Assembly (NCBI GenBank): GCA_004173235.1
Contig: SEAC01000015.1
Span: forward strand, 558,001-622,000
From: Chitinophagaceae bacterium
Lineage (GTDB): Bacteria; Bacteroidota; Bacteroidia; Chitinophagales; Chitinophagaceae
Length of the DNA: 64,000 nt
Direction: 5' to 3'
The notes beneath the pieces are model-generated. The model had not been told where the DNA came from. It made no database searches and saw nothing but the letters and a program-made list of their open reading frames with translations. This document shows, in pieces, positions 3,658 through 60,862 of this stretch (the first letter of the stretch is position 1; the number at the start of each line of letters is the position of its first letter). The translations under genes and the position numbers were made by a program.

Positions 3658-3760
3658 TAATGAGTAATGAGTAATGAGTAATGAGTGAGGGCAGCTGCTC
3701 TAACAAGAAAAATGCCCCAACAACCGGGGCACTCTCATTACTGATTATTCATTTCTGATT
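3658..3760. repeat. Short-unit intergenic repeat with inverted arms (locus A)
   Basis: The left arm (3658-3689) is four copies of a 7-bp TAATGAG-type unit. The right arm (3734-3760) carries inverted, degraded copies (CTCATTA, then variants). The glgC terminator lies between the arms, and the right arm ends 7 bases before the glgC stop codon. See the finding on the whole family. Confidence 0.75.
3708..3731 (-). terminator. glgC terminator
   Basis: Stem TGCCCC/GGGGCA (3713-3718 with 3726-3731). Read on the minus strand it is followed by five T residues, as expected for termination after glgC. Confidence 0.65.
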
Positions 3761-3767
3761 CCCGGTC

Positions 3768-5042
3768 TCACGCGCCCAGTGTAAAGCCGTTGGGCAGCAC
3801 CGAGCCTTTCTTGATCACTACGATGCCATCCTTAATGGTGTACAGTGGGTGGTCTCCGTCTTCCAGGTGCGTGCCGCCAATGATGCGCACATCGTCGCCG
3901 ATGCGGATGTCCTTGTCGATGATCGCATTTTGAATATGGCAGCGCGCACCGATGCCGAGCACGGGAAGGCCGTGCTGCTGGTCGTTTGCGATATCCTCGA
4001 GGGTTTCGAAATAGTCGTTGCCCATCAGGTAAGAGCCGATGATGGTGCTGTCGTGACCGATACGCGAACGAATGCCCACGATGGAATTTTCGATGTGCGC
4101 GGCATTGATGATCGAGCCTTCGGCGATCAGCGTTTTATCGAGCTTCGTGCCGCTGATCTTTGCTGGCGGAAGCATGCGCGCACGCGTGTAAATGGCCTTC
4201 GAATTATCAAAGAGATTGAACGCCGGGATCTCGTCGGTGAGGGCGAGGTTGGCCTCGTAAAATGCCCGGATATTGCCGATGTCTTCCCAATAACCTTCGT
4301 ATTGGAACGATGCCACGCGGTACTTATTGATGGAGTCGGGAATGATGTTCTTGCCGAAGTCGGCCGACTCGGCGTGTTCCTTTTCCAGCAGGTCGAAGAG
4401 CAGGTTGCGGTTGAAGATGTAGATGCCCATCGATGCGAGGTATTGGCGGCCTTTGCTGCGCATCTCATCGCCGGTGTCGGATACCCATTCTTCAATGCCG
4501 GTCTTCGGCTTTTCGATGAAAGATGTGATGAGCCCCTCCTCGCTCGACTTGAGAATACCGAACTCGGAAGCTTCCTTCGCCGTTACCGGGATGGTGGCAA
4601 TGGTGATGTCGGCATTGCGCGCCTTGTGCTCCTCGAGCATCCGCACGAAGTCGAGTTGGTATAGTTGGTCGCCCGAAAGAATAAGCACGTATTCGGCAGG
4701 GAATGGCCGCAGGTGGCGCAGGCCCTGGCGCACCGCATCCGCAGTACCCTGAAACCATGTGAAGTTGTCGGGCGTTTGCTCTGCTGCAAGTATGTCTACG
4801 AACGCGCTGCTGAACGCACTGAAGTGGTACGTGTTTTTAATATGCCGGTTGAGCGATGCGGAGTTATACATCGTGAGCACGAACATCCTGCTGATGCCCG
4901 AATTGAGGCAGTTGGAAATGGGAATGTCGACGAGGCGGTATTTACCGGCGATGGGTACGGCGGGCTTGGAGCGCGTAGCGGTGAGCGGGTACAAGCGGGT
5001 GCCGGCGCCTCCTCCTAAGATCACGGATAACATTTCTTTCAT
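3768..5042 (-). CDS. glgC: Glucose-1-phosphate adenylyltransferase
   Basis: 424 residues, normal family length. It makes ADP-glucose from ATP and glucose 1-phosphate, the committed step of glycogen synthesis. The N-terminal nucleotidyltransferase domain opens with GGGAGTRLYPLT and contains KPAVPIAGKYRLVDIPIS, a typical ADP-glucose pyrophosphorylase start. The C-terminal third has the hexapeptide pattern of the left-handed beta-helix. It lies downstream of glgA on the same strand with a 37-base gap, so the two probably form an operon. The repeat-bearing spacer and terminator separate it from the transporter gene. Confidence 0.95.
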   Translation of the reverse strand: MKEMLSVILGGGAGTRLYPLTATRSKPAVPIAGKYRLVDIPISNCLNSGISRMFVLTMYNSASLNRHIKNTYHFSAFSSAFVDILAAEQTPDNFTWFQGTADAVRQGLRHLRPFPAEYVLILSGDQLYQLDFVRMLEEHKARNADITIATIPVTAKEASEFGILKSSEEGLITSFIEKPKTGIEEWVSDTGDEMRSKGRQYLASMGIYIFNRNLLFDLLEKEHAESADFGKNIIPDSINKYRVASFQYEGYWEDIGNIRAFYEANLALTDEIPAFNLFDNSKAIYTRARMLPPAKISGTKLDKTLIAEGSIINAAHIENSIVGIRSRIGHDSTIIGSYLMGNDYFETLEDIANDQQHGLPVLGIGARCHIQNAIIDKDIRIGDDVRIIGGTHLEDGDHPLYTIKDGIVVIKKGSVLPNGFTLGA

Positions 5043-5079
5043 AGCCTGTCTTTATTTCTAATTGTTAAGTTAGGTGTTT

Positions 5080-6501
5080 TCAACCGCGTGCCGATTCGTA
5101 GAGCTCCTGGTATGCCTGTGCAGAAGCATTCCACGAAAAGTCGAGCCGCATCATATGGCTTTGCATCCATTGCAGCAGGTCCGTGCTGTCGTGGTAGAGG
5201 GCCAGGGCACGGCCAACGGAGTAAACGACATCGCTTACATCGGCATTGTCGAACCGAATGCCATAACCTTGCCATTCGCCAAAGTCGCGCACCGTGTCGC
5301 GCAGTCCGCCCGTGCTGCGCACCATCGGCACCGTGCCATAGCGCAGTGCATACATCTGGTTGAGGCCGCAAGGCTCCACGCGGCTCGGCATCAGCAGGAA
5401 GTCGGCGCCCGCATACATCAGGTGGCTCAGCGTTTCATTGTACCCGATGAACACGTTCACATAACCCTGGAACTGGTACTTCAGCGTTTCGAGCGAGGTT
5501 TCCACGGCGGGGTCGCCGGAGCCAAGCACGAGAAACTGCGCGCTGCCGTGGTGCTGGTAGATGGATTGGCGAATGGCTTCAGGCAGTATGTCGGCGGCCT
5601 TCTCTCCTACCAGGCGGCCAATGAAAACAAACAGCGGTTTCTCTTTGTCGAGGCCGAAGCGCTCGCAGAGTTCCTTCTTGTTTTTTCGTTTGCCTTCACG
5701 CACGTCCTTGTGGCTGTAGTTCTTCACCAGCATCGGGTCGGTGGCCGGGTCCCACACTTCGGTGTCGATGCCGTTGAGGATGCCTGCGCATTTGCCCCGT
5801 TCGTAATTCATCAGCGCCTCGAGTCCGTTGGCGGACTGCCGCAGTTCCTCCATATACGAAGGGCTGACCGTGGTGACGCGCCAGGCGCAGCGCACAGCCG
5901 ATGCCAGCGGGTTGATGGTATTTTCCCAATCGAGCAGGCCCCACTTCCAATTGTCGTATGCCGGAATGAGATTGACCCGGTCCCAACCCATCCAGCCCTG
6001 GTATTGGGCGTTGTGGATGGTGAACACCGTTGGTATGTGCGCCAGCCGCTGAAATGCGAAGCAGTGCTGGAGCATGAAAGGCACGAGGCCCGTATGGTGG
6101 TCGTGGCAATGAATAACGTCGGGCTGATGCTCCCACTTGCTCAGCCAGTCGCACACAGCGATCTGAAAGGCAACGAACCGGTCGGTGTCGTCGTCGTAGC
6201 CGTACACCTTTTCCCGGTCAAGGAGGCCGTTGATGTCTACGAGATACAGGTCGAAGCCAAGCTTGTTGGTTTTCTCCTTGATAATGGCATAGTTGAAATA
6301 CTGCGCTCCGAGAAATTGACCTCCTTCGTGCACCAGCTCGAAATCGTTATCGTACAAGAACTTCGTGCGGTACATGGGCATCACCACTTTGGCCACGTTG
6401 CCGAGCGCCACCTGGTATTTGGGCAGCGCGCCCACCACATCTCCCAACCCGCCGGCTTTGGCCACGGGATAACATTCTGCCGATATATGAATCACCTCCA
6501 T
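5080..6501 (-). CDS. glgA: Glycogen synthase (GT5), full length
   Basis: 473 residues, full length for bacterial GlgA. It transfers glucose from ADP-glucose to the growing alpha-1,4-glucan. The N-terminus has the KAGGLGDVVGALPKY loop that binds the sugar nucleotide, and the C-terminal Rossmann domain has the SRVEPCGLNQMYALRYG and STGGLRDTV segments of GT5. It precedes glgC. A second, half-length GT5 homologue lies at 58998-59813, so this is the enzyme expected to be active. Its 5' end is divergent from the FHS transporter gene. Confidence 0.93.
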   Translation of the reverse strand: MEVIHISAECYPVAKAGGLGDVVGALPKYQVALGNVAKVVMPMYRTKFLYDNDFELVHEGGQFLGAQYFNYAIIKEKTNKLGFDLYLVDINGLLDREKVYGYDDDTDRFVAFQIAVCDWLSKWEHQPDVIHCHDHHTGLVPFMLQHCFAFQRLAHIPTVFTIHNAQYQGWMGWDRVNLIPAYDNWKWGLLDWENTINPLASAVRCAWRVTTVSPSYMEELRQSANGLEALMNYERGKCAGILNGIDTEVWDPATDPMLVKNYSHKDVREGKRKNKKELCERFGLDKEKPLFVFIGRLVGEKAADILPEAIRQSIYQHHGSAQFLVLGSGDPAVETSLETLKYQFQGYVNVFIGYNETLSHLMYAGADFLLMPSRVEPCGLNQMYALRYGTVPMVRSTGGLRDTVRDFGEWQGYGIRFDNADVSDVVYSVGRALALYHDSTDLLQWMQSHMMRLDFSWNASAQAYQELYESARG

Positions 6502-6674
6502 GCTTGTGTGTTGACTGCGTCAAATTAAGAAGCTTTCGTTCCACTATGCCCGCTGCTTTGAAAATCTTTTTATCAACAGCGTATACCCGTCCGGCCGCCC
6601 AATTCAATTTGTAGTTATTTTGGCGTTCAATACCCCCGCCAGGATCACCAAAAAAATAACGAAAGCAAGCAATT

Positions 6675-8555
6675 ATGGCTACTGCAATGAACAGCTCGGG
6701 CACCTCTGTGCAGGGATCCTCCGCAACCAACTACGGGGCACTAAGCACCCTCGTAACCGTTTTTTTCTTCTGGGGCTTCATCGCTGCCGGCAACAGCGTA
6801 TTCATCCCTTTTTGCAAACACTACTTCGCGCTCGACCAGTTCCAGAGCCAGCTGGTAGACTTCGCGTTCTACCTTGCTTACTACATCGGCGCGCTGCTCC
6901 TCTTTATCTTCGGCACGTTCCAGGGCCGCGACCAGGTGGGGCGCTGGGGTTATAAGCGGAGTATCGTTTACGGACTTTTGTTCTCCGCGTTAGGCGCCAT
7001 CGCGATGATACTGGCCGTGCGCGGCAACACCTTCGCGGGCATGCTGGTGGGACTGTTCATCGTTGCGCTCGGCTTCTCGCTGCAGCAAACCGCGGCACAG
7101 CCTTTCGCCATTTCGCTGGGCGACCCGGCCACCGGCACCAGCCGTGTAAACCTCGGCGGCGGCATCAACTCGTTCGGCACCATGATCGGACCCATCATCG
7201 TTGCGTACGTGCTTTTCAGCACCACCAAGGCGTTCAACGACAAGATGATCCAGTCGCTCGGCCTCGATAAGGTGATCATGCTGTATGCCGGCGTGGGCGT
7301 TCTGTTCATCGCGGCAGCGGCGCTCTTCTTCTTTTCGAAGAAAGTTCCCGACGGCGTTTCATTGGAAAAGACCGAGCGTGCATCGAAGGCGCTCACTACG
7401 CTGCTGCTCATCACCGTATTACTCATTGCATTGTTTGCGCCGGTCTTTGCATCGTATCGCAGCGACGAACAAAAGCGCATCGACGAAGTAGCTGCTTCCA
7501 TCGAGCCGCAAATGGCCGTCCACGATTCGCTCCAGCACCTGAAGGCTCCAACGCCTGCCGACGAAGCACAGGTGGGCGTTATAGAGGCGCAAACGAAACC
7601 GCAGACCGACGAGATCAACAGCCTCCGCAAGCCGCTGGAAGAAAGCCGGATGAAATACCTGTTCGGTGCGCTCATCGTTGTGGTGGGCGGTCTCCTCATT
7701 GCCAACAGCGCCGCACGGCGCAAGCCTGCTGGCTGGGGCGCCATGCAATACCCGCAACTGGTGCTCGGTATGCTTGCCATCTTCGTATACGTGGGTGTGG
7801 AAGTGACCACGGTGAGCAACCTCGGAGAGCTGCTGAAGCAGAAAGCATTTGGCGGGCTCCAGTCTTCGGAAGTGGCTCCTTATGTAACCATGTATTGGGG
7901 CGGACTGATGATCGGGCGCTGGACCGGCGCCATTTCGGTGTTCAACATCACTGCGTCAACGAAACGGATGCTGATGTTCTTAGTGCCGCTGCTCGCGTTC
8001 GCGATCATACTCGCGGTTATTTATCTCTCCGGGTATGACGTGTCGGTATTCAAGTTCTTCATCCTTTGCGTGCTGGTGCAGATGGCTGGCTTCTATCTAT
8101 CGAAAGACCGCCCTGCGCAAACGCTTTTGATCTTTTCCGCACTCGGCCTGGTGGCGATGCTGATCGGCATCTTCAGCACCGGCCAAACGGCGATCTATGC
8201 ATTCCTGAGCGGAGGACTGTTTTGCTCCATCATGTGGCCGGCCATCTTCACGCTTTCCATCGCAGGGCTCGGTCGCTATACCACGCAGGGATCGGCTTTT
8301 CTCATCATGATGATCCTCGGTGGCGGCATCATCCCTCCCATCCAGGGCAAGCTGGCCGACTTCATCCAGAGCCGGTCTGCAGAGGCGGGTTATGGCATTC
8401 ACCAATCGTATTGGGTGCCCGTGTTGTGCTTTGCCTACCTTGCGTTCTTTGCTTTTGCCGTACGGGGCATCCTGCGCCGGCAAGGCATTGACTACGAGCG
8501 GCAGGCCGGCGACGACACCGTGGCAACTGTCCCCGAAGTGAGCACGGAAGTATAA
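6675..8555 (+). CDS. FHS-family sugar MFS transporter with a large central insertion
   Basis: 626 residues, against about 410-440 for the fucose/glucose-galactose (FucP/GluP) family it resembles. The start ([12 protein letters not shown]) and the [13 protein letters not shown] and [15 protein letters not shown] segments match this family. The extra length is between the two halves: a hydrophobic helix near residues 240-262, a hydrophilic stretch of about 70 residues rich in Glu/Lys/Gln, and a second helix (about 325-345). The ROK sugar kinase starts 22 bases downstream, so import followed by phosphorylation of glucose or a similar sugar is likely. Confidence 0.88.
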
Positions 8556-8577
8556 TACCAACCCTTATCAAACTACC

Positions 8578-9546: not shown

Positions 9547-9668
9547 TTTACAGTTTACAGTTTTCAGTTTCGAGTTGGCATAAGCCATATGGAAAAGGAG
9601 GCTGCTCATCGAGCAGCCTCCTTTTTAGGTTCAGACCTTACTATAAAACTGTACACTGAAAACTTCTA
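9544..9668. repeat. Short-unit intergenic repeat with inverted arms (locus B)
   Basis: The left arm (9544-9576) has four imperfect copies of TTTACAG/TTTTCAG right after the kinase stop. The right arm (9645-9668) has inverted copies (AAAACTG, ACACTGAAAACTT) and ends on the lipA stop codon. A strong terminator lies between. Confidence 0.8.
9593..9626. terminator. Bidirectional hairpin terminator
   Basis: Perfect 11-bp stem (9597-9607 with 9611-9621) with a 3-base loop, four A on the left and five T on the right; it serves the convergent ROK kinase and lipA. Confidence 0.9.
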
Positions 9669-10577: not shown

Positions 10578-10581
10578 GGTG

Positions 10582-10589
10582 CAAAAATA
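10582..10589 (-). promoter_or_regulatory. lipA -7 box (TATTTTTG)
   Basis: Exact match to TAnnTTTG on the minus strand, four bases before the lipA ATG. This predicts transcription starting at or next to the start codon. No clear -33 TTG was found at the usual spacing. Confidence 0.55.
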
Positions 10590-10618
10590 CGATAATGCCC
10601 GGTTTGCCGGGATGCGGG

Positions 10619-11416: not shown

Positions 11417-11438
11417 GATCGTCAAACGGTTGTAAGCG

Positions 11439-11446
11439 TAAATTTA
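11439..11446. promoter_or_regulatory. Palindromic TAAATTTA box shared by two divergent genes
   Basis: The palindrome differs from TAnnTTTG only at the last base on either strand. It lies 22 bases before the GTG of the barrel-like gene and 23 bases before the ATG of the OsmC gene. A shared -7 element is an inference from position. Confidence 0.35.
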
Positions 11447-11469
11447 TGCACAAATCAACACAAAAAGCT

Positions 11470-11883: not shown

Positions 11884-11889
11884 TCCGAT

Positions 11890-13752: not shown

Positions 13753-13754
13753 AT

Positions 13755-15206: not shown

Positions 15207-15281
15207 AAGTCTGATCTCTGATGTCTGACGTCTGATTTCAGGACTGTCTTATTACGTCAGACATCCCACATCCTACATCAG
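15207..15281. repeat. Short-unit intergenic repeat with inverted arms (locus C)
   Basis: Left arm (15208-15237): four copies of TCTGATG/TCTGACG. Right arm (15255-15281): inverted copies (GTCAGACATC, CACATCC, TACATCAG). The two arms can fold into a long imperfect hairpin between iscX and kdsC. No separate terminator stem lies in the 17-base centre. Confidence 0.8.
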
Positions 15282-15941: not shown

Positions 15942-15966
15942 CAAAGTCAAAATTCAAAAGTCAAAA
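15942..15966. repeat. Short-unit intergenic repeat, single arm (locus D)
   Basis: Three AAAGTC/AAAATTC/AAAAGTC-type 7-bp units in the spacer between the DUF2520 gene's 3' end and fdx. No inverted partner is visible. The same unit type recurs at locus I (41472-41557). Confidence 0.65.
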
Positions 15967-17654: not shown

Positions 17655-17677
17655 TCGTGGACGATTGACGATTCAAG
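17655..17677. repeat. Short-unit intergenic repeat, single arm (locus N)
   Basis: Two and a half imperfect copies of GACGATT in the 60-base gap between the two hydrolase genes. Small, and no inverted partner is seen. Confidence 0.45.
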
Positions 17678-22007: not shown

Positions 22008-22029
22008 GTGAAGGGAGGAAGCAACGATT

Positions 22030-22113
22030 CACCGCGAAGCAGCGAAGACAAGAACATTCCACGCAACGTGCGTACTTCTTTATGGAAGCCTTTTTTGCTT
22101 CTTTCTTCGCGGT
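22030..22113. repeat. Short-unit intergenic repeat with inverted arms (locus E)
   Basis: The left arm has ACCGCGAAG then CAGCGAAGAC (22031-22049). The right arm has CTTCTTTCTTCGCGGT (22098-22113). ACCGCGAAG pairs perfectly with CTTCGCGGT. A small ACGCA/TGCGT hairpin (22061-22073) sits between. Both flanking genes are on the plus strand. Confidence 0.75.
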
Positions 22114-22126
22114 TAAAAACCTTCTT

Positions 22127-23618: not shown

Positions 23619-23790
23619 AAATGCGCACGGAATTCACGGAACACACGGAATGCCTGCTTACTACCTTGGAAGAAATGCGCACGGAATGCTCGGAATACAC
23701 GGAATGTGTAACTGCTTCCCGAAAAAAAGACGTTGCACTGCAACGTCTCTCGTTCTTTTTCCGTGATTTCCGTGGATTCCGTGCGCCTCA
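23619..23790. repeat. Short-unit intergenic repeat with doubled left arm (locus F)
   Basis: Two left arms (23619-23654 and 23671-23707) each start GCGCACGGAAT and continue with CACGGAA/CTCGGAA units. The right arm (23756-23790) is the inverted form (CCGTGATTTCCGTGG and so on) and ends exactly on the lepB stop codon. The lepB terminator lies between the arms. Confidence 0.82.
23721..23748 (-). terminator. lepB terminator
   Basis: Stem AGACGTTG/CAACGTCT (23728-23735 with 23741-23748). On the minus strand it is followed by seven T. Confidence 0.8.
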
Positions 23791-29125: not shown

Positions 29126-29240
29126 CCGCAAAGAAAGTAAGAAAAGAAGGTGACGCTAGGCATGAACAATAAGCAACGGCACGCACAGCGAGCCGTTTCA
29201 TGACGTCTTTGCACAATCTTCTTCTCTCCTTTCCTTTGCG
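29125..29240. repeat. Short-unit intergenic repeat with inverted arms (locus G)
   Basis: Left arm ACCGCAAAG, AAAGTAAG, AAAAGAAGG (29125-29150) begins on the last base of the SemiSWEET gene. The right arm (29217-29240) has CTTCTTCTCTCC, TTTCCTTTGCG. About 65 bases of unrecognised sequence lie between, and no terminator stem was found. Confidence 0.7.
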
Positions 29241-32564: not shown

Positions 32565-32607
32565 CATTTCACATCTCACATTTCACATCTCACATCTCGC
32601 ATCTTAC
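32565..32607. repeat. Short-unit intergenic repeat, single arm (locus H)
   Basis: About six copies of CACATCT/CACATTT. The array stops one base before the yceI stop codon. The terminator is on its left, where the opposite arm would be expected; no such arm is visible. Confidence 0.8.
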
Positions 32608-41471: not shown

Positions 41472-41557
41472 GCAAAAGTAAAAATTCAAAAGTCAAAAGC
41501 GAAGGCGGTACTATGCTAAAGAAGAACCAGTTTGCCTTTTCACTTTTTACTTCTCCC
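41472..41557. repeat. Short-unit intergenic repeat with inverted arms (locus I)
   Basis: Left arm (41472-41503): CAAAAGTAAAAATTCAAAAG-type units ten bases after galK. Right arm (41534-41557): inverted GCCTTTTCACTTTTTACTTC, covering the galM stop codon and two or three of its last codons. Confidence 0.78.
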
Positions 41558-49372: not shown

Positions 49373-51853
49373 TCAAAGCATATCATCCGGGCCCAGCTCA
49401 GGGTGGCTTCCCTGGTCGGCGGACGGCTGCTGCTGCTGTTGTTGTTGTTGTTGTTGTTGTTGCGGTTGCTCTCCACCGTTAGAAGGGCCGTTTTGCATTC
49501 CAGTGTCGCCATCGCCACCGCGTGCTTCACGACGCTCTTCGCGGCGATCATTGCGCTCCATCCGGCGGTCGCCTCCACGGTCATCGCGGCGGTCTCCACG
49601 GTCACGACGGTCGCCACCACGGTCATCGCGGCGGTCTCCGCGATCGCGGCGATCACCACCACGGTCATCACGGCGGTCGCCACGGTCCGAGCGCTCGCGG
49701 CGATCTTCAACGTGCCCTTCCGGTTTCGGCATCAGCACCTTGCGGCTCAGTTTGAATTTGCCGGTCTTCTGATCCACGCCAATGAGTTTCACCTTGATCA
49801 TCTCACCTTCGCTAAGCACGCCATCGAGCGTTTCGAGACGCTTCCAGCTTACTTCGGAGATGTGCATCAGTCCCTGCTTTCCGGGCATGAATTCTACAAA
49901 GGCGCCATAAGGCATGATCGAGATCACTTTGCCTTCGTATTCGCCCCCTTCTTCAGGCACTTCCACGATTCCTTTCACCCATGCCAGCGCCTTGTCTACG
50001 CCTTCTTTAATGGCGCCAAAGATGGCTACTTCGCCCTGGTCGTTCTTTTCTTCGATGTTGATGGTGGTACCGGTTTCGCGCTGGATCTGTTGGATGATCT
50101 TGCCGCCAGGCCCGATCACTGCGCCGATGAACTCGCGGTCGATATAGATCTTCACGGTACGCGGTGCGTGCGGCTTCACGTCTTCACGGTGCGCCGGCAT
50201 GCACTGCTCCATTGCTTCAAGGATGTGCATCCGTCCGCGGCGTGCCTGCTCCAGTGCCTGGCGCATCACGTCCATCGAAAGGCCGTCAACCTTGATATCC
50301 ATCTGCACTCCGCAGATACCGTCGCGGGTGCCGGTTACTTTAAAGTCCATGTCACCGAGGTGGTCTTCGTCGCCGAGGATGTCGGTAAGAACGGCAAACT
50401 TGTCGCCTTTGGTGATGAGTCCCATCGCAACACCGGAAATGTGCTTTTTGAAAGGCACACCGGCATCCATGAGGGCGAGACAGCCTGCGCAAACGGTAGC
50501 CATCGACGAAGAGCCGTTGGATTCGAGGATGTCGCTGACCACGCGCACCGTGTAGGAATATTCCGCGCCGGGCATCATCTGCTTGAGCGAGCGGAGCGCC
50601 AGGTTACCATGACCTACTTCGCGACGGCTTGCGGCGCGGAGGAATTTCACTTCGCCCGTAGAGAACGGCGGGAAGTTGTAGTGGAGAAGGAACTTGGTAT
50701 AGTCCGACTTGGCAGCGCTTTCCACCAGCAGCTCGTCGAGCGGGGTGCCGAGGGTAACGGTGGTCAGGGATTGTGTTTCTCCACGGGTGAACAGCGCCGA
50801 TCCATGGGGACCGGGAAGCACATCCACTTCCATGTCGAGCGGGCGCACCTGGTCGAGGCTGCGGCCGTCGAGGCGGATGCGATCGTTGAGGATCATATCG
50901 CGTACCGTGTGGTACTGCAGGTCGGAAATGTAGTTGCCCACGAGACGCTTGGTGAGATCTGGCAGGTCTTCGCCTTCCGCGAGGTTGGCCTCGGCCTTGA
51001 GTGCCGTGATCACTTCGTCTTTAACAGCCTTGTAGGCTTCTTTGCGTTGTGCTTTAGGGTATTGTGCGCGCGCGATTTCCGCCATGCGCTTTTCGCCGAG
51101 CTCGTTCACGCGGGTGCGGAGCGTTTCGTCCTGATCGGGCTTCGGGTAGTCGCGCTTGGCGCCTACACCTACCATCGCGCGGAGTTCTTCCTGCGCTTTG
51201 ATCTGTATGCGGATCGCGTCGTGCGCCAGCTCGATCACCTTGATTAGGTCTTCTTCGCTGCACTCTTTCGCTTCGCCTTCCACCATCATGATATTCTTTT
51301 CGGTGGCGGCGATGATGAAGTCCATATCGCTCAGCGTCATCTGCGACCGGGTGGGGTTGATGATGTATTCACCGTTGATGCGGCTTACGCGCACTTCGGA
51401 GATGACCTCCTGGATGGGAACGGTGGAAACCGCGAGGGCGGCCGATGCAGCCAGGCAGGCCATGGCGTCGGGCATGATCTCGGGGTCGGAAGAAATGAGG
51501 GTGATGATCACCTGCACTTCGCAGAAGTAGTCTTCGGGGAACAGCGGGCGAAGGGCGCGGTCAACCAGGCGCGAAGTGAGTACTTCGTAGTCGTTGAGGC
51601 GGCCTTCACGCTTGAAGAACGAGCCGGGAATGCGGCCTGCGGAGGCGAACTTCTCCATATAGTCTACGGAGAGGGGGAAGAAGGATTGGCCGGGTTTCGG
51701 CTCTTCGGTGGCCACAACGGTGGCAAGCAATACGCAATTGCCCTGGCGAACGGTTACGGAACCGTCGGCCTGGCGGGCGAGGCGACCCGACTCGATCGTG
51801 ACTTCGCGGCCACCACCGATGTCGAATGATTTGGAAAATTTTTGGGTCAACAT
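49373..51853 (-). CDS. pnp: Polynucleotide phosphorylase with a long repetitive C-terminal tail
   Basis: 826 residues from the ATG at 51853, against about 700-720 for standard PNPase. Order: first RNase PH domain, helical domain, second RNase PH domain, KH (VIGPGGKIIQQIQRETG) and S1 (YEGKVISIMPYGAFVEFMPG). The added tail of about 110 residues has three 14-residue units rich in Arg, Gly and Asp, then a run of 12 Gln and an acidic end. PNPase degrades mRNA from the 3' end in the RNA degradosome. The rpsO-pnp order is the classical one. The tail may add RNA contacts or protein docking (inference). Confidence 0.95.
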   Translation of the reverse strand: MLTQKFSKSFDIGGGREVTIESGRLARQADGSVTVRQGNCVLLATVVATEEPKPGQSFFPLSVDYMEKFASAGRIPGSFFKREGRLNDYEVLTSRLVDRALRPLFPEDYFCEVQVIITLISSDPEIMPDAMACLAASAALAVSTVPIQEVISEVRVSRINGEYIINPTRSQMTLSDMDFIIAATEKNIMMVEGEAKECSEEDLIKVIELAHDAIRIQIKAQEELRAMVGVGAKRDYPKPDQDETLRTRVNELGEKRMAEIARAQYPKAQRKEAYKAVKDEVITALKAEANLAEGEDLPDLTKRLVGNYISDLQYHTVRDMILNDRIRLDGRSLDQVRPLDMEVDVLPGPHGSALFTRGETQSLTTVTLGTPLDELLVESAAKSDYTKFLLHYNFPPFSTGEVKFLRAASRREVGHGNLALRSLKQMMPGAEYSYTVRVVSDILESNGSSSMATVCAGCLALMDAGVPFKKHISGVAMGLITKGDKFAVLTDILGDEDHLGDMDFKVTGTRDGICGVQMDIKVDGLSMDVMRQALEQARRGRMHILEAMEQCMPAHREDVKPHAPRTVKIYIDREFIGAVIGPGGKIIQQIQRETGTTINIEEKNDQGEVAIFGAIKEGVDKALAWVKGIVEVPEEGGEYEGKVISIMPYGAFVEFMPGKQGLMHISEVSWKRLETLDGVLSEGEMIKVKLIGVDQKTGKFKLSRKVLMPKPEGHVEDRRERSDRGDRRDDRGGDRRDRGDRRDDRGGDRRDRGDRRDDRGGDRRMERNDRREERREARGGDGDTGMQNGPSNGGEQPQQQQQQQQQQQQPSADQGSHPELGPDDML
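49427..49462. repeat. 12-codon CAA/CAG run in pnp
   Basis: On the coding strand eight CAA codons follow four CAG codons or vice versa, giving 12 Gln in a row. A length-variable tract is likely at replication. Confidence 0.85.
49560..49700. repeat. About 42-bp tandem repeat encoding the Arg/Gly/Asp units of pnp
   Basis: Three closely similar 42-bp units, differing at a few third positions, encode RGDRRDDRGGDRRD-type units. A partial unit lies on each side. Confidence 0.8.
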
Positions 51854-51960: not shown

Positions 51961-52002
51961 AAAAGCCCTCCCCAAAGCGCGGGAGGGTCAGGAAGGGCTT
52001 TT
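51961..52002 (-). terminator. rpsO-pnp intergenic terminator with two competing hairpins
   Basis: The outer pairing is AAAAGCCCT with AGGGCTTTT; the inner is CCCTCCC with GGGAGGG. Both use the bases at 51966-51969, so they exclude each other. Either one is followed by a T-run on the minus strand. Confidence 0.7.
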
Positions 52003-52004
52003 AC

Positions 52005-52274: not shown

Positions 52275-52335
52275 TGTTTCGGGTTTTGTCAGGCATCCCC
52301 ATTGGAAGCCTATTTCGGTTTACTTATTTGAGGTG

Positions 52336-52343
52336 CAAAGGTA
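52336..52343 (-). promoter_or_regulatory. rpsO -7 box (TACCTTTG)
   Basis: Exact TAnnTTTG on the minus strand, 61 bases before the rpsO ATG. Confidence 0.55.
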
Positions 52344-52355
52344 GGGGAATTAGAT

Positions 52356-52462
52356 CAAAGTTTAGAGTTTTCAGTTTCCAGTTTGAGAGCGAAAGAGCGA
52401 GCCTCCTGCGCTTAAACCTGAAGTTGTTGCTATCCAAAACTGAAAACTGAAGACTCAAAACT
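52356..52462. repeat. Short-unit intergenic repeat with inverted arms (locus J)
   Basis: Left arm (52357-52389): GTTTAGA, GTTTTCA, GTTTCCA, GTTTGAG. Right arm (52434-52462): inverted CCAAAACTGAAAACTGAAG-type units. It lies between divergent rpsO and miaE. The unit type is close to locus B. Confidence 0.8.
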
Positions 52463-52474
52463 TATTTTCGCCGC

Positions 52475-53086: not shown

Positions 53087-53391
53087 CCGCCGCACCCCCC
53101 GACCCCCTCTCCGGAAACCGGAGAGGGGGGCATCCGCACCCCCTACCCCCTCTCCAGCCGGTTGCGCCATCACAACTCAAAGGTACCGTCAGCTTCTGGC
53201 AAGCCACCTGATGGGAAAAACACCATTTCGTCAGAAAATTCCCACCAGATTCTGTTCCATTCCTCATACGCGTCGAGACGGAGGGAGGCAACTTTGTGTA
53301 CAGAACTTGTAATAGAACTTAAAACTGGAGAGGGGGCAGGGGGTGAGGAATTCCCTCTCCGGTTTCCGGAGAGGGATAAAGGGTGAGGAGT
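53087..53391. repeat. Large inverted repeat array with C-rich units (locus K)
   Basis: This 305-base spacer has a left arm (53087-53161) with CACCCCC and CCCCTCTCC units plus a palindrome CCCTCTCCGGAAACCGGAGA. The right arm (53324-53391) is its inverse, including CCCTCTCCGGTTTCCGGAGA. The 162 bases between carry no gene or repeat I can name. The left arm starts on the base after the miaE stop, and the right arm ends on the base before the GSCFA stop. Confidence 0.85.
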
Positions 53392-55256: not shown

Positions 55257-56020
55257 TGTTTCATTCGTTGCTTCATCGCTTCGTAAAGGATCATACCGGT
55301 TGCCACCGAAACGTTGAGCGATTCAAACCCGGTGGGCATGGGGATTGAAAAACGGTCGTCGCAGATCTTCATCAATACCGAATTGATGCCGCGCTCCTCT
55401 CCACCCATCACGATCGCAACGGGCTCGTTGAATGCGATGTCGAAGGTCTTTTTCTCCGCCGTCATCTCGGAGGCCAGCACGCGGATGCCGTTCATGCGCA
55501 GTTCATCTACGGCCTTCATCAGGCTGTTGACGCGACACACGGGCAATTGCTCGAGCGCTCCTGCCGACGTGAGCACCGCGTCTTCGTTGAGCGCGCCTAC
55601 GCCTTTGTCGGGAATGATCAGCGCCTGCACGCCCATGCTCCATGCGGTGCGGGCAATGCCGCCGATGTTGCGGATATCGGTCACGCCATCAAGGATAAGA
55701 AACATCGGAACCTCGCCGTTATCGACCACAAAGGAGATCATCTGCTGCAGGTCGTGATATTGCACCCTCGAGAGCAGCGCTACGCAGCCACCATGTTCGC
55801 CAACGTTGAAGCCGTTGAGCTTATCTGCCGGCACATAATTTATGGGCACGCCAGCTTTCTCGGCAGCTTTACGAATTTCACCCTGCAACACGGTTGAAGC
55901 GGTCTTTTGCAGGTAGATGCGGTCGAGTGCGCGCCCCTCGGAGAGTGCTTCCAGGATGGCACTGCGGCCGGCGAGCAACATATTCTTTTTGGGTCGCTGC
56001 GGGGAGCGGAAATTTTTCAC
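55253..56020 (-). CDS. rlmB: 23S rRNA 2'-O-methyltransferase RlmB/TrmH family
   Basis: 255 residues from a GTG at 56020; the ATG at 55981 (MLLAGRSAILEAL) is the alternative. The SpoU core has LDGVTDIRNIGGIARTA (motif 1), MGGEERGI (motif 2) and IPMPTGFESLNVSVATG (motif 3). The short N-terminal domain binds RNA. An exact -7 box four bases before the GTG is the same geometry as lipA. It heads the unit rlmB - HMG-CoA lyase - GSCFA. Confidence 0.88.
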   Translation of the reverse strand: MKNFRSPQRPKKNMLLAGRSAILEALSEGRALDRIYLQKTASTVLQGEIRKAAEKAGVPINYVPADKLNGFNVGEHGGCVALLSRVQYHDLQQMISFVVDNGEVPMFLILDGVTDIRNIGGIARTAWSMGVQALIIPDKGVGALNEDAVLTSAGALEQLPVCRVNSLMKAVDELRMNGIRVLASEMTAEKKTFDIAFNEPVAIVMGGEERGINSVLMKICDDRFSIPMPTGFESLNVSVATGMILYEAMKQRMKQ

Positions 56021-56024
56021 GGGG

Positions 56025-56032
56025 CAAAGATA
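56025..56032 (-). promoter_or_regulatory. rlmB -7 box (TATCTTTG)
   Basis: Exact TAnnTTTG on the minus strand, four bases before the GTG start. Confidence 0.5.
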
Positions 56033-56086
56033 AAGAGAAAGGGTGCTGGAGCTCTTAGGTTCCGGAGAGAGCAGTGGTGCGTCTTT

Positions 56087-56120
56087 ACCAATAAACCATT
56101 GAACCAATCAACCACTAAAT
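56087..56120. repeat. Short-unit intergenic repeat, single arm (locus L)
   Basis: About four copies of AACCAAT/AACCATT next to the metK terminator. No inverted partner is visible. Confidence 0.7.
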
Positions 56121-56122
56121 AA

Positions 56123-56142
56123 AAAGCCCCTTTCGGGGCTTT
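56123..56142 (-). terminator. metK terminator
   Basis: AAAGCCCC/GGGGCTTT (56123-56130 with 56135-56142), T-run on the minus strand, three bases after the metK stop. Confidence 0.85.
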
Positions 56143-56145
56143 GAA

Positions 56146-57396
56146 TCAGATTCCAAATGCTTTGCGCACCTTGCCAACGTAGTCCAGCTTTTCCCAGGTG
56201 AACAGTTCCACCTTTTTGTTGATGGTCTTTCCACCGGGCTGAATGAAGGTCTTGGTAACCACTTCAGGCTTGCGTCCCATATGTCCGTAGGCAGCTGTTT
56301 CACTATAGATCGGGTTGCGCAGTTTCAGGCGCTGCTCGATGAAGTAAGGACGCATGTCGAAGATGGATTTCACCAGGTCGGCAATCTCGCCGTCGGTCAT
56401 TTCCACTTTCGCGGTGCCGTACGTATTCACGTTGATGCTCGTGGGCTCCGCAACGCCGATGGCGTAGGAAACCTGCACCAGCACTTCGTCGCACACACCG
56501 GCAGCCACGAGGTTCTTGGCAATGTGACGCGTGGCGTAAGCAGCCGATCGGTCCACCTTCGAAGGATCTTTTCCGGAGAAGGCACCACCACCGTGCGCGC
56601 CTTTGCCACCGTAGGTATCCACGATGATCTTGCGGCCCGTAAGCCCCGTGTCGCCGTGCGGTCCGCCGATAACGAACTTACCCGTAGGGTTGATATGGTA
56701 TTTGATACCGTCGTTGAACAGCTTCGCGTATTTCTTGTATTTCGACTTCACCCGCGGAATGAGAATGTTGATGATGTCCTTGCGGATCTGGTCGGCCATC
56801 TTCTTTTCGGTATCGAAGTCGTCGTGCTGCGTCGACACAACGATGGCGTCGATGCGCACGGGACGGTTGTTATCGTCATACTCGAGCGTCACCTGGCTTT
56901 TCGCATCGGGACGCAGGTATTTGATCTGCTTGTTCTCGCGGCGCAGCACGGCCAGCTCCAGCAGCAGCTTGTGCGCGAGGTCAAGCGCAAGCGGCATGAA
57001 ATCTTCCGTTTCGTTGCTGGCGTAACCGAACATCATGCCCTGGTCGCCGGCGCCCTGCTCTTCTTTCTTCTGGCGATCCACACCCTGGTTGATATCCGAC
57101 GACTGCTCGTGGATGGCAGACAGGATACCGCAGGAGTTCGCTTCGAACATATACTCGCTCTTGGTGTAGCCGATCTTGCGGATGACGCCGCGAGCAATCT
57201 CCTGCACGTCGAGGTAAGCTTTCGATTTCACCTCGCCGGCAAGCACCACCTGCCCTGTAGTTACCAGCGTTTCGCAGGCAACCTTGGATTGCGGATCGAA
57301 GGCAAGAAAATGGTCGATGAGGGCGTCGGAGATCTGGTCGGCAACTTTATCGGGATGGCCTTCCGATACGCTTTCAGATGTAAAGAGATAAGGCAT
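56146..57396 (-). CDS. metK: S-adenosylmethionine synthase
   Basis: 416 residues from the ATG at 57396 ([20 protein letters not shown]), which matches the invariant start of MetK. Other motifs are [12 protein letters not shown] and [19 protein letters not shown]. It makes SAM from methionine and ATP. The length is normal for Bacteroidota, which carry a short insertion. There is no SAM riboswitch: the predicted leader is only about 35 bases. Confidence 0.97.
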
Positions 57397-57430
57397 GAGT
57401 GGCTGAAAATTGATGGGTTGGAAAATAAAA

Positions 57431-57453
57431 CAGGGTGCAAATATAGCACCCTG
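57431..57453 (-). terminator. DUF4270 gene terminator
   Basis: CAGGGTGC/GCACCCTG (57431-57438 with 57446-57453), 7-base loop, followed on the minus strand by TTTTATTTT. The loop contains most of the metK -7 box. Confidence 0.8.
57438..57445 (-). promoter_or_regulatory. metK -7 box (TATATTTG), inside the upstream terminator
   Basis: Exact TAnnTTTG on the minus strand, 41 bases before the metK ATG. It occupies the loop plus one stem base of the terminator. Confidence 0.55.
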
Positions 57454-57472
57454 TCGTATTAGAAAGTTAAGG

Positions 57473-58966
57473 CTATGGAAGCCGCGAATAGACGATGCGG
57501 AGGCGCATTCGCTTGGAGGGGTCGGCAAAAGTGCCTCCACCAAGCACTGCACGACCTTGCGCGATGCGCGAAATGCCATAGATGGAGCGGCCGGCGCGCG
57601 GGAAGCGGGCATCGGCTACACGCACCTTGTAAGGAGCAAACAATTTCAACTGGTCGTTGCTCACATTATGCAGCAGCACCTGCTGCACATAAAGGCTCAT
57701 GTTGAAACGATACGTGTTGTCGGTTTTAAGACTGCCGCCGAAGATGCTGCTCACTGCGCCGCTGCTTCCGAGCAGTGCCGACAAAGAGTCGTCGCGGATC
57801 TGAAGCATCGAATCGCCGGAACGGCGGCCCAGGTACATGGCAGCGGGTGGCGTAAAGACGTCGCTGCTTGCAGAGGGAACGATGGATGCAACAAGCTCGG
57901 CGCGGTGTACGAGTTTGTTGGTCATCGTATCAAGACCCGGAATGCGCAGGTAAATGGCGCTGCCCGGCTCGGTTTGCACATAAGCCTTGTCTTCGCTGGC
58001 ACCGAGGTTGCTCAGGTAAGTAAGCCAGTTGTTGGCCGGGGTGCGACGAATGATGTTGGCTTGCGTGGCACGCGCCTTCAGCGTCGAAGTGTCGCCGGAA
58101 GAATACGTGGCGCTGTAGCCCGCACCAAACAAACCGTGGTAGAACGCCGCCGAAGTCGTATCAATGACGCCGTTGCGCTTCACGCGGAAATACACCTGCA
58201 CCTTGCTCTTGGCGCTGTCGAGGAGGTTGAAGTAACCCAGGCCGTTGCCGGCCATATCAGCTTTCACTGCAAGCCCGTGGTGCTTGTTGTAAAAGGAAGT
58301 AAAAGTGCCATAGTGTGCTGTCGTTGAGTCAACGATCAATGCGTTGGCGAAGGCTGCAAAGTTGGTGAGCGGGATGCGCAGCACGTTGGCCACCTTGAGG
58401 GTATCACGCTTGCGGATGAGCAGCTGCGTGTCTTTCAGCTGGCTCAGCGAAAAGGTCTTCGAACCGAGCGTTGGCCCCGTAGCGAAGTCTGCATTCTGCG
58501 TGGTATAAAGCGCGCTGTCCTTGAAGTCGGCAGTTTGATCTACTTCCTGCACATGCACCGTCAAAGGCATCGTGCTGTCACCGTATTTATCAACGTAAGC
58601 GAGCGAAAGAACTACCGAGTCTACGCCAACAACCGAATCCTGGTGATAGAACTGGTAATAGGCAGGGCCATAAGTGGCCGGACCGTATTGAAAATAGATA
58701 TCAGCTTTTGTCGCTCCAAACTCCGGGTCGTTGGTGATTGCGCCAAGCGCCATCGCATCGTTGGGGCTTACCGTAGTGTTGCCGTTCCAACGACCGTTGT
58801 CGGTTTCTACGTCCAGGAAAGTTTCGAAGGTATTGATGTTGTCTACCGCAGGTACCAACCCGTTTCCGAGCTCGGTTGCTTCATTGATCTTGCGGCAGGA
58901 CTGAATTCCAAGGCTAAACGTCAGCAACAAGGCTGCCGGCAAAAGCAGCCAGTAAAGTTTCTTCAC
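57473..58966 (-). CDS. DUF4270 family lipoprotein
   Basis: 497 residues from a GTG at 58966 ([14 protein letters not shown]). Lipoprotein signal with Cys near residue 24 (IQSCRK). Beta-rich, with the DUF4270 pattern IYFQYG...[27 protein letters not shown] and a C-terminal [12 protein letters not shown]. The family is restricted to Bacteroidota and its function is unknown. It follows the GT5-like gene with a 31-base gap, a pairing I recall from related genomes. Confidence 0.85.
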
Positions 58967-58997
58967 ACGAAAGAATTATCGGTTTAAAAGGAGCGAA

Positions 58998-59813
58998 CTA
59001 CTTACCCGCAAGGTCGACATACAACTGTAAATAGTCTGTTAAATCAGACTCTGCATTGTAGGGCAAGGTCTTCTTGCCACGCACCTTGGAGAAGGCATCC
59101 ACAAGTGCCGGATCCACGTCGTCCGAACCGAAGGTGATCGCATCGGCATAGGTTGCGCCGCCACGGAACATCGCGGTGTTGTTGCTTTCCTTGAACGCCT
59201 CGAGGTCTTTCTCTTTCAGCGTTGCGTGGATGAGTGCCTTCTCGATGAAGTCGGCACCGAGGCTTTCTTCAAACGTGTTCTGGCCAAGGGTATACACCAC
59301 TTTGCTGTGTGCAAAAACGGGCTCCTTTTTATATACGGTTTTGAGGTAGGCAGGAATCAGCGCCGACATCCAGCCCGAGCAATGGATGATGTCGGGAGGC
59401 CAGCCGAATTTCTTCACGGTTTCGAGTGCACCCTTGCAAAAGAAAACGGTGCGGAGATCATTATCGTCATACCACTCTTCCTTTTCATCGGTGAAGACGA
59501 ACTTGCGCTTGAAGAGATCTTCGTTGTCGAGAAAATAAACCTGCAGGCGGGCGTTAGGAAGCGAAGCTACCTTGATCTGGAGGGGAAAGTCTTCATTGTC
59601 AACCGAGACGTTGATGCCCGAGAGACGCACCACTTCATGAAGGCGGTGACGGCGCTCGTTGATGGTACCGAAACGGGGCATGATGCAGCGCACTTCGAAA
59701 TTATTGTCGTTGGCCTTGATGGCCAGGCGGTTGACGATCTCGGAGAACTCTGTCAGCTCCAGGTAGGGCGACATCTCGTTGGCTATAAATAAAATTCTTT
59801 TCTTTGCTGACAT
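58998..59813 (-). CDS. Half-length GT5 (glycogen/starch synthase N-terminal domain) protein
   Basis: 271 residues from the ATG at 59813. The N-terminal Rossmann half of starch/glycogen synthase is clear: RILFIANEMSPYLELTEFSEIVNRL, RCIMPRFGTINERRHRLHEV, and PDIIHCSGWMSALIPAYLKTVY. The usual KxGGL loop is replaced by Thr/Glu residues, and the C-terminal ADP-glucose-binding half is missing. It is therefore unlikely to make glycogen. A full GlgA is encoded at 5080. It could be a binding or scaffold protein, and the conserved place next to panC suggests it is not a decaying gene. Confidence 0.82.
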   Translation of the reverse strand: MSAKKRILFIANEMSPYLELTEFSEIVNRLAIKANDNNFEVRCIMPRFGTINERRHRLHEVVRLSGINVSVDNEDFPLQIKVASLPNARLQVYFLDNEDLFKRKFVFTDEKEEWYDDNDLRTVFFCKGALETVKKFGWPPDIIHCSGWMSALIPAYLKTVYKKEPVFAHSKVVYTLGQNTFEESLGADFIEKALIHATLKEKDLEAFKESNNTAMFRGGATYADAITFGSDDVDPALVDAFSKVRGKKTLPYNAESDLTDYLQLYVDLAGK

Positions 59814-59848
59814 TGTAAACCCGGGTTTAGCCTTTATTAAAAGGTGTG

Positions 59849-59856
59849 CAAAGGTA
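59849..59856 (-). promoter_or_regulatory. GT5-like gene -7 box (TACCTTTG)
   Basis: Exact TAnnTTTG on the minus strand, 35 bases before the ATG. Confidence 0.5.
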
Positions 59857-59904
59857 ACCATAATTTGCCAATGCCGCTCCGGATAATGAATACGTGCCGC
59901 ATTC

Positions 59905-60747
59905 ATGATCATTTTCAAAACCGCCCGGGACCTCAGCGCCTGGCTGTCTGCGGCCGCTGCCGACGGACAGTCTACAGGGTTCGTGCCCACGATGGGCGCA
60001 CTCCACGAAGGCCACCTGTCGCTTGTCCGCCAATCGCGCGCTGCCAACGGCCGCACGGTGTGCAGCATCTTCGTCAACCCAACGCAATTCAACAACGCCG
60101 ACGACTTCAGCAATTACCCGGTGACCATCGAGAAGGACATCGAGTTGCTGCTGGGCGCTGGCTGTGATGCGCTCTTCCTGCCTTCGGTGCAGGAAGTGTA
60201 TCCGCCAGAGCATGTTAAAAAGCACTATGCACTCGGGCCCGTGGAGACGGTGCTCGAAGGAGCCTTCCGCCCCGGCCACTTCCAGGGCGTGTGCGAGGTA
60301 GTGGAGCGGCTGCTCGATATCGTTGCCCCGCAGCGCCTTTACCTGGGGCAAAAAGACTTCCAACAGTGCATGGTGTTGCAAAAGCTGCTCGCGCTTACGA
60401 GCAAGAACGCGCACACGGACCTGATCATCGCCCCTACCCTGCGCGAAGCCGACGGCCTCGCCATGAGCAGCCGTAACCTCCGGCTCAGCGACGATGAGCG
60501 TAAAGGCAGCATTGCGATCTTTCAGAACCTCGACCGCATCCGGCTTGCATTCGGCACGAAGGACAGCCGCGAGCTGGAAGCGGAAGCCAAATCCGATCTT
60601 GAGGGGAAAGGGTTTCGCGTAGACTATATCGCCATCTGCGAGCCCGCGACGCTTCTTCCCAAAACGGATGGCCGAAGACCCGCCGTTGTGCTCGCCGCCG
60701 CTTACCTCGGGCCTGTGCGCCTGATCGATAACCTCGTATTGTCGTAA
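59905..60747 (+). CDS. panC: Pantothenate synthetase
   Basis: 280 residues. It joins pantoate and beta-alanine with ATP. The adenylation motifs are VPTMGALHEGHLSLV and MSSRNLRLS. The start at 59905 fits the family length. panD follows, so the two enzymes of the beta-alanine branch are adjacent. It is divergent from the half-length GT5 gene. Confidence 0.95.
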   Translation: MIIFKTARDLSAWLSAAAADGQSTGFVPTMGALHEGHLSLVRQSRAANGRTVCSIFVNPTQFNNADDFSNYPVTIEKDIELLLGAGCDALFLPSVQEVYPPEHVKKHYALGPVETVLEGAFRPGHFQGVCEVVERLLDIVAPQRLYLGQKDFQQCMVLQKLLALTSKNAHTDLIIAPTLREADGLAMSSRNLRLSDDERKGSIAIFQNLDRIRLAFGTKDSRELEAEAKSDLEGKGFRVDYIAICEPATLLPKTDGRRPAVVLAAAYLGPVRLIDNLVLS

Positions 60748-60760
60748 CAACGTTAGCCAT

Positions 60761-60862
60761 CTGCCGTGAGCACGCATCATGAAAAGTATTGCAAAGCGCG
60801 CTGAATATTCCAATGGTCAGATGTGCAGCTCACGGTTCACGGCTCACGGTTCACGGTCTGCG
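60761..60862. repeat. Short-unit intergenic repeat with inverted arms (locus M)
   Basis: The right arm (60828-60858) is GCTCACGG, TTCACGG, CTCACGG, TTCACGG. The left arm is a single inverse copy, CTGCCGTGAGC (60761-60771). It lies between panC and panD, and the panD -7 box begins seven bases after it. Confidence 0.75.

Follow-up and report, generated by a model that had tools for sequence, protein, structure and literature searches.

The 64,000-nt stretch of DNA analysed here (the window) is part of contig C22 in a 3.76-Mb draft genome of a soil bacterium, which, judging from its sequence, is probably a member of Flaviaesturariibacter (Chitinophagaceae, Bacteroidota). topA of this source genome shows 93% identity to F. 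aridisoli (G012) and 90% identity to F. flavus (G010). The window holds no tRNA and has no Rfam match at gathering score. Short tandem arrays, mostly with units of 7 or 8 bp, stand in its intergenic gaps. An initial annotation of the window listed fourteen such loci, A to N, and proposed that a slippage-driven or REP-like (repetitive extragenic palindromic) process builds them. Here, the arrays were examined in the window, in three Flaviaesturariibacter genomes, and in loci of their relatives. They are a real, widespread, and poorly explained class of repeats, and their rules are described more closely here than in the heptamer literature found.

The source genome (G000; 92% complete) was compared with the drafts of F. 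flavus (85%) and F. aridisoli (95%). Gaps were scanned in samples of 504 kb (299 gaps), 480 kb (312 gaps), and 199 kb (128 gaps), respectively. Gap periodicity was expressed as a self-match score per lag and, in the window, was compared with 100 sets of dinucleotide shuffles. The relatives' set consisted of loci around topA, mostly from Chitinophagaceae and with both sister species included; 74 loci entered the period scan and 72 the tests of strand rule, array pairs, TGA/TCA, arms, and hairpins. Genes were called with a custom codon-usage script, a non-standard caller, and part of the gap edges are therefore misplaced. Only some low-complexity and N-run stretches were removed, and in the F. 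flavus sample one N-run accounts for about one spurious gap at every short lag. Genomes with at least three array gaps at the topA locus were called array-rich and those with none array-poor. Fourteen array-rich genomes were used, with L104 (arrays in 3 of 8 gaps) and L036 (F. flavus itself) excluded, together with 21 of the 37 array-poor loci. Genomes with one or two array gaps at topA were left out of this comparison, except for two in the search for Y1_Tnp.

Across the 48 gaps of the window, a lag-7 score of at least 12 was reached in 5 gaps, against 0 in 100 shuffled sets. Lag 14 reached it in 3 gaps, and among lags 2 to 20 no other lag did so. In the source genome, a score of at least 10 at lags 7, 8, 9, and 10 was reached by 38, 18, 5, and 7 of the 299 gaps, respectively; the shuffled means were 0.15 each at lags 7, 8, and 10 and 0.2 at lag 9. 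Lags 3 to 6, 11, and 12 gave no gap among the 299, and period 7, 8, or 9 was present in 59. The counts at lags 7, 8, 9, and 10 were 24, 15, 3, and 2 of 312 gaps in F. flavus (shuffled means of about 1.1, raised by the N-run) and 5, 5, 2, and 0 of 128 in F. aridisoli, where period-7-9 arrays (score at least 10) stood in 11 gaps. In coding-DNA controls, no gap scored at lag 7, and the number per set did not exceed 0.4 at lag 8 and 1.0 at lag 9. At the 74 relatives' loci (995 gaps), lag 7 was found in 69 gaps and lag 8 in 40, versus 1 and 2 in one shuffle. The comparison with shuffled gaps that the initial annotation had named as its own check was thereby run, and its central observation stands: short-period arrays lie in the gaps of the window, the three genomes, and the relatives far above chance. 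Periods 7 and 8, the unit lengths that it had given, dominate, and the minor periods 9 and 10 belong to the same picture. Being tandem, of about 7 bp, over-represented, and intergenic, the arrays belong to the class of intergenic heptanucleotide simple sequence repeats (LSSR/STRR).

The spread of the arrays is patchy. No array was found at 37 of the 74 topA loci, and six Niastella species and some others were rich. The topA locus of F. aridisoli (L060) has no array gap, though arrays stand elsewhere in that genome. In the source genome, arrays were commonest in convergent gaps (17 of 51), as compared with tandem (32 of 181) and divergent ones (10 of 67). F. flavus had a weak convergent excess (9 of 55), and in F. 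aridisoli (2 of 19) the excess was unclear.

The initial annotation had seen a different unit at each locus, and this did not hold. Units recur even within the window (at B and K, at D and J, and in the right arm of C and at I), and families are shared across gaps and sister species. Common to many gaps are the 7-bp families AAACTGA, CACATCT, CATCAGA, GACTTTT, CTCACGG, CTCATTA, and GACGATT, the 8-bp families CCAATAAA, CCCATTAC, and CCTTAGAA, and the 9-bp family AATTCCGTG. In the three Flaviaesturariibacter genomes, 137 of 208 arrays were assigned to a family and 71 were unassigned or ambiguous; the source genome has at least 10 named units in four period lengths. When a Niastella gap region (1301 bp, coding DNA included) was used as query against ten related genomes, each gave between 3 and at least 100 matches, many of which fall in the array part. 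Species thus seem to differ in the word that they favour. Among period-7 or period-8 arrays with at least three deviating letters (n = 117), 109 had fewer variable unit columns than random placement (means 2.5 versus 3.5), which would also follow from copying within an array. Stop codons were not enriched in the units (79 of 110 versus 77 expected; both strands 13 versus 23 expected), and an all-frame stop-codon insulator was therefore rejected. Single-strand self-structure was slightly lower than in column-permuted arrays (61% of 261 arrays), a weak effect. The YC step, which bears on Rho-type C-rich loading sites, is missing from some units. G runs are missing from several families (CAGTTTT, TTTATTGG, AATCGTC, TAATGAG), and in this they depart from the quadruplex-forming type described by Rehm et al. 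(2015), whose unit has a G run.

The arrays obey a strand rule. Arrays within 40 bp of a gap edge, a cut-off of our own choosing, were read away from the nearest gene; G exceeded C in 169 and C exceeded G in 21 (210 arrays, 20 ties). The ratio was 46:4 in the source genome, 26:7 in F. flavus, 16:0 in F. aridisoli, and 81:10 at the 72 relatives' loci. Without the cut-off, it was 61:20, 34:16, 20:0, and 132:41. Single-array gaps gave 86:12 (of 108), and the G-rich strand thus stands beside the neighbouring gene and reads into the gap in these as in the whole set, an arrangement of the Rehm type. The rule was found in single-array gaps between convergent (33:2) and divergent (10:0) genes alike, so it does not follow transcription. 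It was weaker near 3' ends in tandem gaps (17:7, p = 0.064), and exceptions occur, as at locus D. Array-free gap edges at 3' ends (stop codons) had no G skew (62:79 in the source genome, 242:252 in the relatives). Array-free 5' edges share the skew; the 5' part of the rule is thus not specific to arrays, and only the 3' part clearly is. Family orientation agreed with the rule in 117 of 137 assigned arrays, with CACATCT (10 of 16) and GACTTTT (4 of 7) worst. This agreement is inflated by post hoc assignment of the orientations; the G/C composition test is independent of family assignment. Whatever sets the strand direction must act at gene edges and be blind to the strand of the gene itself.

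Arrays of the same gap are often inverted relative to each other. Among 142 same-gap pairs, 41 were inverted, 16 direct, 56 unrelated, and 29 different in period, whereas 5869 between-gap pairs comprised 215 inverted and 224 direct ones. Two close arrays of one unit in convergent orientation, as in the Rehm type, are thus in excess here (41 versus 16). At least two arrays were present in 78 of 249 array gaps, and one array only in 171. The loop between the arms had a median of 46 bp and measured 5 to 24 bp in 14 of the 41 two-armed elements. The initial annotation often placed a terminator hairpin between the arms. Such a hairpin stands there at loci A (a terminator-like GC stem), B, and G, but in the wider set a perfect stem of at least 7 was found between the arms in only 4 of the 41 elements. 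In the three Flaviaesturariibacter genomes, 15 of 28 convergent array gaps had a hairpin, versus 54 of 84 other convergent gaps (p = 0.37); in the relatives the figures were 4 of 19 and 34 of 84 (p = 0.19). With so few stems and no significant association with hairpins, a terminator seed, an origin of the repeats in intrinsic terminators, and a substitution for terminators were all rejected.

Arms mostly recur without their spacers. After arrays were masked, only 6 similar pairs were left among 66 array gaps of the source genome (two parts of CGCAGAT elements, a terminator, a promoter-like box, an array remnant, and a short piece with a T run at its end), 3 among 46 gaps in F. flavus (two terminators and one promoter-like box), and none among 15 array gaps in F. 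aridisoli. A palindromic dispersed element of about 110-148 bp, starting AGAGAAAGAACGCAGATT.. and with a conserved spacer, has several copies in the source genome and F. flavus (Table 1).

Arrays come, go, and change between species. Orthologous gaps were compared with an array defined by a score of at least 9 at any lag from 7 to 10, lower than the 10 of the genome scan. From 64 source array gaps tried, an orthologous gap was found for 24 in the F. aridisoli sample, with an array in 11, and for 44 in the F. flavus sample, with an array in 13. Orthologous gaps retain the design, but their unit either drifts in concert or gives way to another. Every copy had changed together in CTCACGG to CTCACGC, CCGTSAG to TCGTSAA, and TCTGATG to TCAGATC, each at one gap; unrelated units faced each other in TTTACAG versus TAATGCGG and in TTTATTGG versus GATGTTT. 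Similar unit change and replacement was observed around topA in the six Niastella species. One convergent gap followed through ten Niastella-group genomes carries AACTTTGA-type arms in three; the others hold a GAATATT-type pair, AACTGAAT-type 8-bp arms, another 8-bp pair, or a short palindromic run, and in three of the ten genomes there is a hairpin with no arm or one.

Neighbouring heptamer units differ in a preferred way. In the context T.A, G/C swaps (TGA to TCA or the reverse) made up 58 of 109 differences, versus 23 of 342 elsewhere. The swap was found in 30 of 204 heptamer arrays (14 in the source genome, 3 in F. flavus, 1 in F. aridisoli, and 12 in the relatives). Octamers had no such excess (4 of 37 versus 25 of 229). 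TGA/TCA was the most enriched trinucleotide of the distinct heptamer units (44 of 110 versus 29 expected). Since stop codons are not enriched, the swap does not look like a translation trap. The form TSA plus four bases is shared by the cyanobacterial unit TTGGTCA. The published TAACTGA (PMC4679880) fits this form.

Any cause must meet periods 7 and 8, many units, inverted pairs, a strand rule blind to transcription, unit change, and the TGA/TCA toggle. The reading that we lean to, with some reserve, is that the arrays are quite possibly tolerated, fast-turnover DNA with no sequence-specific host function, maintained by slippage turnover and by copying of units between gaps. Slipped-strand synthesis would amplify and homogenise the unit within each gap. 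A new gap would take its first unit from an array elsewhere in the genome, by template switching into that array; template switching is proposed because spacers are mostly not copied with the unit. Slippage had been invoked by the initial annotation, and copies that change together between sister species agree with it.

Several results weigh against this reading. Slippage alone accounts neither for inverted arms nor for a strand rule, nor for one unit being shared by many unrelated gaps. Y1_Tnp, RVT_1, and Ku were looked at, and no seeding enzyme or step emerged. The spacer was copied along with the arms in a 95-bp pair of Niastella vici (92.6%), in a 75-bp pair of F. flavus (86.7%), and in elements of about 110-148 bp with CGCAGAT arms, copied whole in the source genome and F. 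flavus; whole-element transposition fits these better. Arms of one gap were no more alike in variant order than same-family arms of other gaps (p = 0.28); with no signal for it, copying from arm to arm was rejected. The TGA/TCA swap has no place in an account by slippage and copying.

Transposition of whole elements was weighed as a general explanation. On this account, the arrays are non-autonomous mobile palindromes, similar to REPIN or miniature inverted-repeat transposable elements (MITE), which a transposase such as RAYT moves whole, with arms that are repetitive by chance; we consider it unlikely. Y1_Tnp genes, candidates for RAYT-like or IS200-like enzymes, have three matches in the source genome and are present in both sisters. 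They were found in 14 of 14 array-rich versus 14 of 21 array-poor genomes (one-sided hypergeometric about 0.02, for a comparison chosen post hoc) and in both searched genomes with one or two topA array gaps. As regards MITE, whole copies were observed only for the CGCAGAT elements and a few pairs. The initial annotation had suggested a search for RAYT genes. RAYT-like genes exist, but around the 14 in Flaviaesturariibacter the neighbours are, by eye, other, GC-rich short palindromes, and an array lay within 330 bp in only 3 of 14 cases (L157, L161, and L164). Five of the 20 Y1_Tnp places (L164, L165, L167, L170, and L172) were framed on the opposite strand, and their flank labels are approximate. 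Different gaps mostly have unrelated spacers, as would not be expected for copies of a single REP-type element, and this also tells against the REP-like process first proposed. At least 10 units in four period lengths misfit a sequence-specific single-strand transposase. Six Niastella genomes have one strong Y1_Tnp match each (at least 74 bits), the rest being near the cut-off, yet they have many units. A RAYT-driven REP system as the general cause was rejected because the repeats beside the Flaviaesturariibacter Y1_Tnp genes are mostly of another kind (by eye) and the arrays mostly do not share spacers.

The Y1_Tnp genes gave two observations of their own. At L156-L169, RAYT-like genes of about 150 aa stand amid short GC-rich palindromes, with seven matches in F. 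aridisoli; judged from this arrangement, they are perhaps a classical RAYT-REP system of Flaviaesturariibacter. At L170-L174, a Y1_Tnp gene (142 aa in those three where it was read in frame) stands in five Niastella genomes at seemingly one place, which is unusual for a transposase, beside a gene that we take to be aroB-like.

Less likely again is a function as two-armed hairpins, serving as bidirectional terminators or insulators, with selection on architecture rather than sequence. The enrichment of convergent gaps in the source genome suggests it, as does the Niastella-group convergent gap, where a strong hairpin stands in the three genomes that lack two arms and most two-armed genomes show none (by eye). 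Over many gaps, however, arrays and hairpins are not mutually exclusive, arrays stand between divergent genes too, most array gaps have a single array, arms match no better inside a gap, and the convergent excess fades in the sisters.

Lower still in our estimation stands a repeat-writing activity that would add 7-8-bp words from a lineage vocabulary at gene edges, with the G-rich strand 3' outward, and rewrite them over time, as a telomere-like, strand-bound filling of intergenic DNA, often from both sides of the gap. If such a writer existed, the TGA/TCA swap would be its mark, with the duplex TGA/TCA read regardless of strand. A reverse transcriptase in this role is not supported, as RVT_1 had no match in the source draft, F. 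flavus, or F. aridisoli genomes (92%, 85%, and 95% complete); it was found in 10 of 14 array-rich versus 8 of 21 array-poor genomes.

Bidirectional end-extension appears very unlikely. Here, the 3' ends at a break would be extended with the same G-rich unit, as at telomeres, and then joined. This predicts one unit on both sides in opposite orientation with the 3' direction of the G-rich strand pointing into the gap, an independent variant order of the arms, in keeping with p = 0.28 for any difference, and an often short loop, as in the 14 elements noted above. RVT_1, though, is without a match in the source draft and the sisters. Ku was found in 10 of 14 array-rich versus 9 of 21 array-poor genomes, and with 4 of the 14 lacking a match, Ku end joining is not supported. 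A single break cannot place a terminator between arms (loci A, B, and G), and a one-break single arm predicts no link between position and orientation, whereas such a link is seen. Least credible of all is plain local slippage, with the repeats of each gap grown from local sequence: concerted unit change inside a gap agrees with it, as does the suggestion that 7 bp reflects the stretch interacting with DNA polymerase (Mrazek, 2007, as cited in PMC4679880 and PMC4692102), but families common to many gaps, inverted same-unit pairs, and the strand rule largely refute it as sole cause.

The named loci of the window were each tested against 300 dinucleotide shuffles (Table 1). Period 7 was found at A, B, C, D, E, I, J, K, and N (p ≤ 0.0033), period 9 at G, and period 8 at M (p = 0.003). 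H is weak (lag 8, p = 0.017), and F (best p = 0.053, lag 8) and L (lag 7, p = 0.02; a different GC-rich element) were rejected. An inverse arm had been described at nine loci; about five to eight of the 14 have one. At A, C, G, and K, none of the 300 shuffles gave arms as complementary, and H has an equally strong long inverse match (0 of 300) without clear periodicity. At B, the best inverted match is the terminator itself, but an array arm is visible at 9645-9665; J and N are borderline. No significant second arm was found at D, E, I, M, or F (p = 0.073 for F), and the inverted match of L belongs to another repeat type.

Table 1. Arrays and arms at the named loci (positions in the window) and copies of a dispersed element (gap indices for contig C22)
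Feature	Position	Strand	Unit and remarks
Locus A, left array	3658..3686	+	TAATGAG x4.1
Locus A, right arm	3734..3760	-	degenerate inverse of TAATGAG; beats all 300 shuffles
Locus B, left array	9547..9570	+	TTTACAG/TTTTCAG; adjoins stop codon
Locus B, right arm	9645..9665	-	AAAACTGTACACTGAAAACT; same-family arms in F. aridisoli
Locus C, left array	15210..15235	+	TCTGATG
Locus C, right arm	15254..15279	-	CAGACATC..CACATCCTACATC
Locus D, single array	15943..15966	+	AAAGTCA; orientation exceptional for its family
Locus E	17660..17673	+	GACGATT, two copies; p = 0.007 in a separate window test
Locus G, outer left array	23623..23651	+	CACGGAATT, period 9
Locus G, inner left array	23679..23706	+	period 9
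Locus G, right arm	23758..23786	-	TTTCCGTGA, period 9; adjoins next gene
Locus H, left arm	29127..29149	+	purine-rich CGCAAAG..; period weak
Locus H, right arm	29218..29240	-	inverted match beats all 300 shuffles
Locus I, single right-type array	32565..32604	-	CACATCT/CACATTT; inverse arm not significant (p = 0.15)
Locus J, left array	41474..41499	+	AAAAGTC
Locus J, right arm	41531..41546	-	borderline, p = 0.050
Locus K, left array	52358..52384	+	CAGTTTT; divergent gap
Locus K, right array	52436..52463	-	AAAACTG
Locus M, array	56087..56114	-	ACCAATAA, period 8
Locus N, short left arm	60764..60771	+	CCGTGAGC; borderline, p = 0.067
Locus N, right array	60828..60857	-	TCACGGT/CTCACGG
AGAGAAAGAACGCAGATT.. 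element copies	C22 gaps 91223, 278656, 297028, 310625, 348176, 494830		index = C22 position minus 178000

Other repeats lie in the window. Locus L (53087-53391) is another dispersed repeat (CCCCCTACCCCCTCTCC with GGAGAGGGGGCAGGGGGTGAGG), with an extra copy at about 416035-416640 of C22. Loci F (22028-22116) and H (29127-29240) have ACCGCGAAG or CGCAAAG-type arms with inverse ends. Rather than 7-bp arrays, they seem to be degenerate copies of a dispersed element of greater length. Tandem repeats of 9, 21, and 42 bp at 49426-49687 lie within a long open reading frame (ORF) and are probably a repetitive coding tail.

The regularities described here point to a process that rewrites the DNA between genes. 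They make its cause testable, and they bear on the use of intergenic DNA in regulation studies, strain typing, and promoter prediction. Among known systems, RAYT-linked REP and REPIN elements share with the arrays intergenic inverted pairs of fixed orientation. They differ in that the palindromes beside the local Y1_Tnp genes are of another, GC-rich type (by eye) and that the spacers of the arrays are mostly not shared. In bacteria, an excess of heptamers has been published since 2007 without a proven cause (as cited in PMC4692102). Heptanucleotides are likewise over-represented in the cyanobacterial LSSR/STRR (Calothrix heptamers; Mrazek, 2007, as cited in PMC4679880 and PMC4692102), but the descriptions found of these are without families with inverted arms, a strand rule, or unit replacement. 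The TAACTGA direct repeats of Beggiatoaceae, Cyanobacteria, and Bacteroidetes (MacGregor, 2015; PMC4679880) are also intergenic heptamers of TGA plus four bases; they occur in some Bacteroidetes, and the corresponding gaps of relatives are shorter and repeat-free. Unlike the arrays, they consist of a single unit, which in the Orange Guaymas genome mostly stands directly before start codons; for that genome the parts of the paper drawn on report one indirect repeat and describe related heptamers as rare.

The closest likeness is to the GGGAATC and GGGGA(C/T)T arrays of Xanthomonas and Nostoc (Rehm et al., 2015; PMC4692102), which are intergenic heptamers with heterogeneous units. In the sections of that paper used here, close convergent array pairs number 70 and 75 in two Xanthomonas, the G-rich strand lies beside the upstream ORF, arrays are rare between divergent genes, and a sister species shares the gaps with changed arrays. 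There, one G-rich, quadruplex-forming unit type was followed per genome, whereas here a genome has many families, several without G runs, with periods of 7 to 10 and a unit identity that changes at a fixed gap. Heptamer excess, convergent pairs of one unit, and the suggestion of a polymerase footprint are reported across PMC4692102, PMC4679880, PMC4666352, and PMC4060949. The heptamer literature found, mostly non-subscription, has in the parts covered no account of many families under a common strand rule, of unit replacement, or of the TGA/TCA swap. New in the present arrays are a strand rule that holds at gene starts and stops alike, concerted drift and replacement of units at orthologous gaps, and the TGA/TCA excess.

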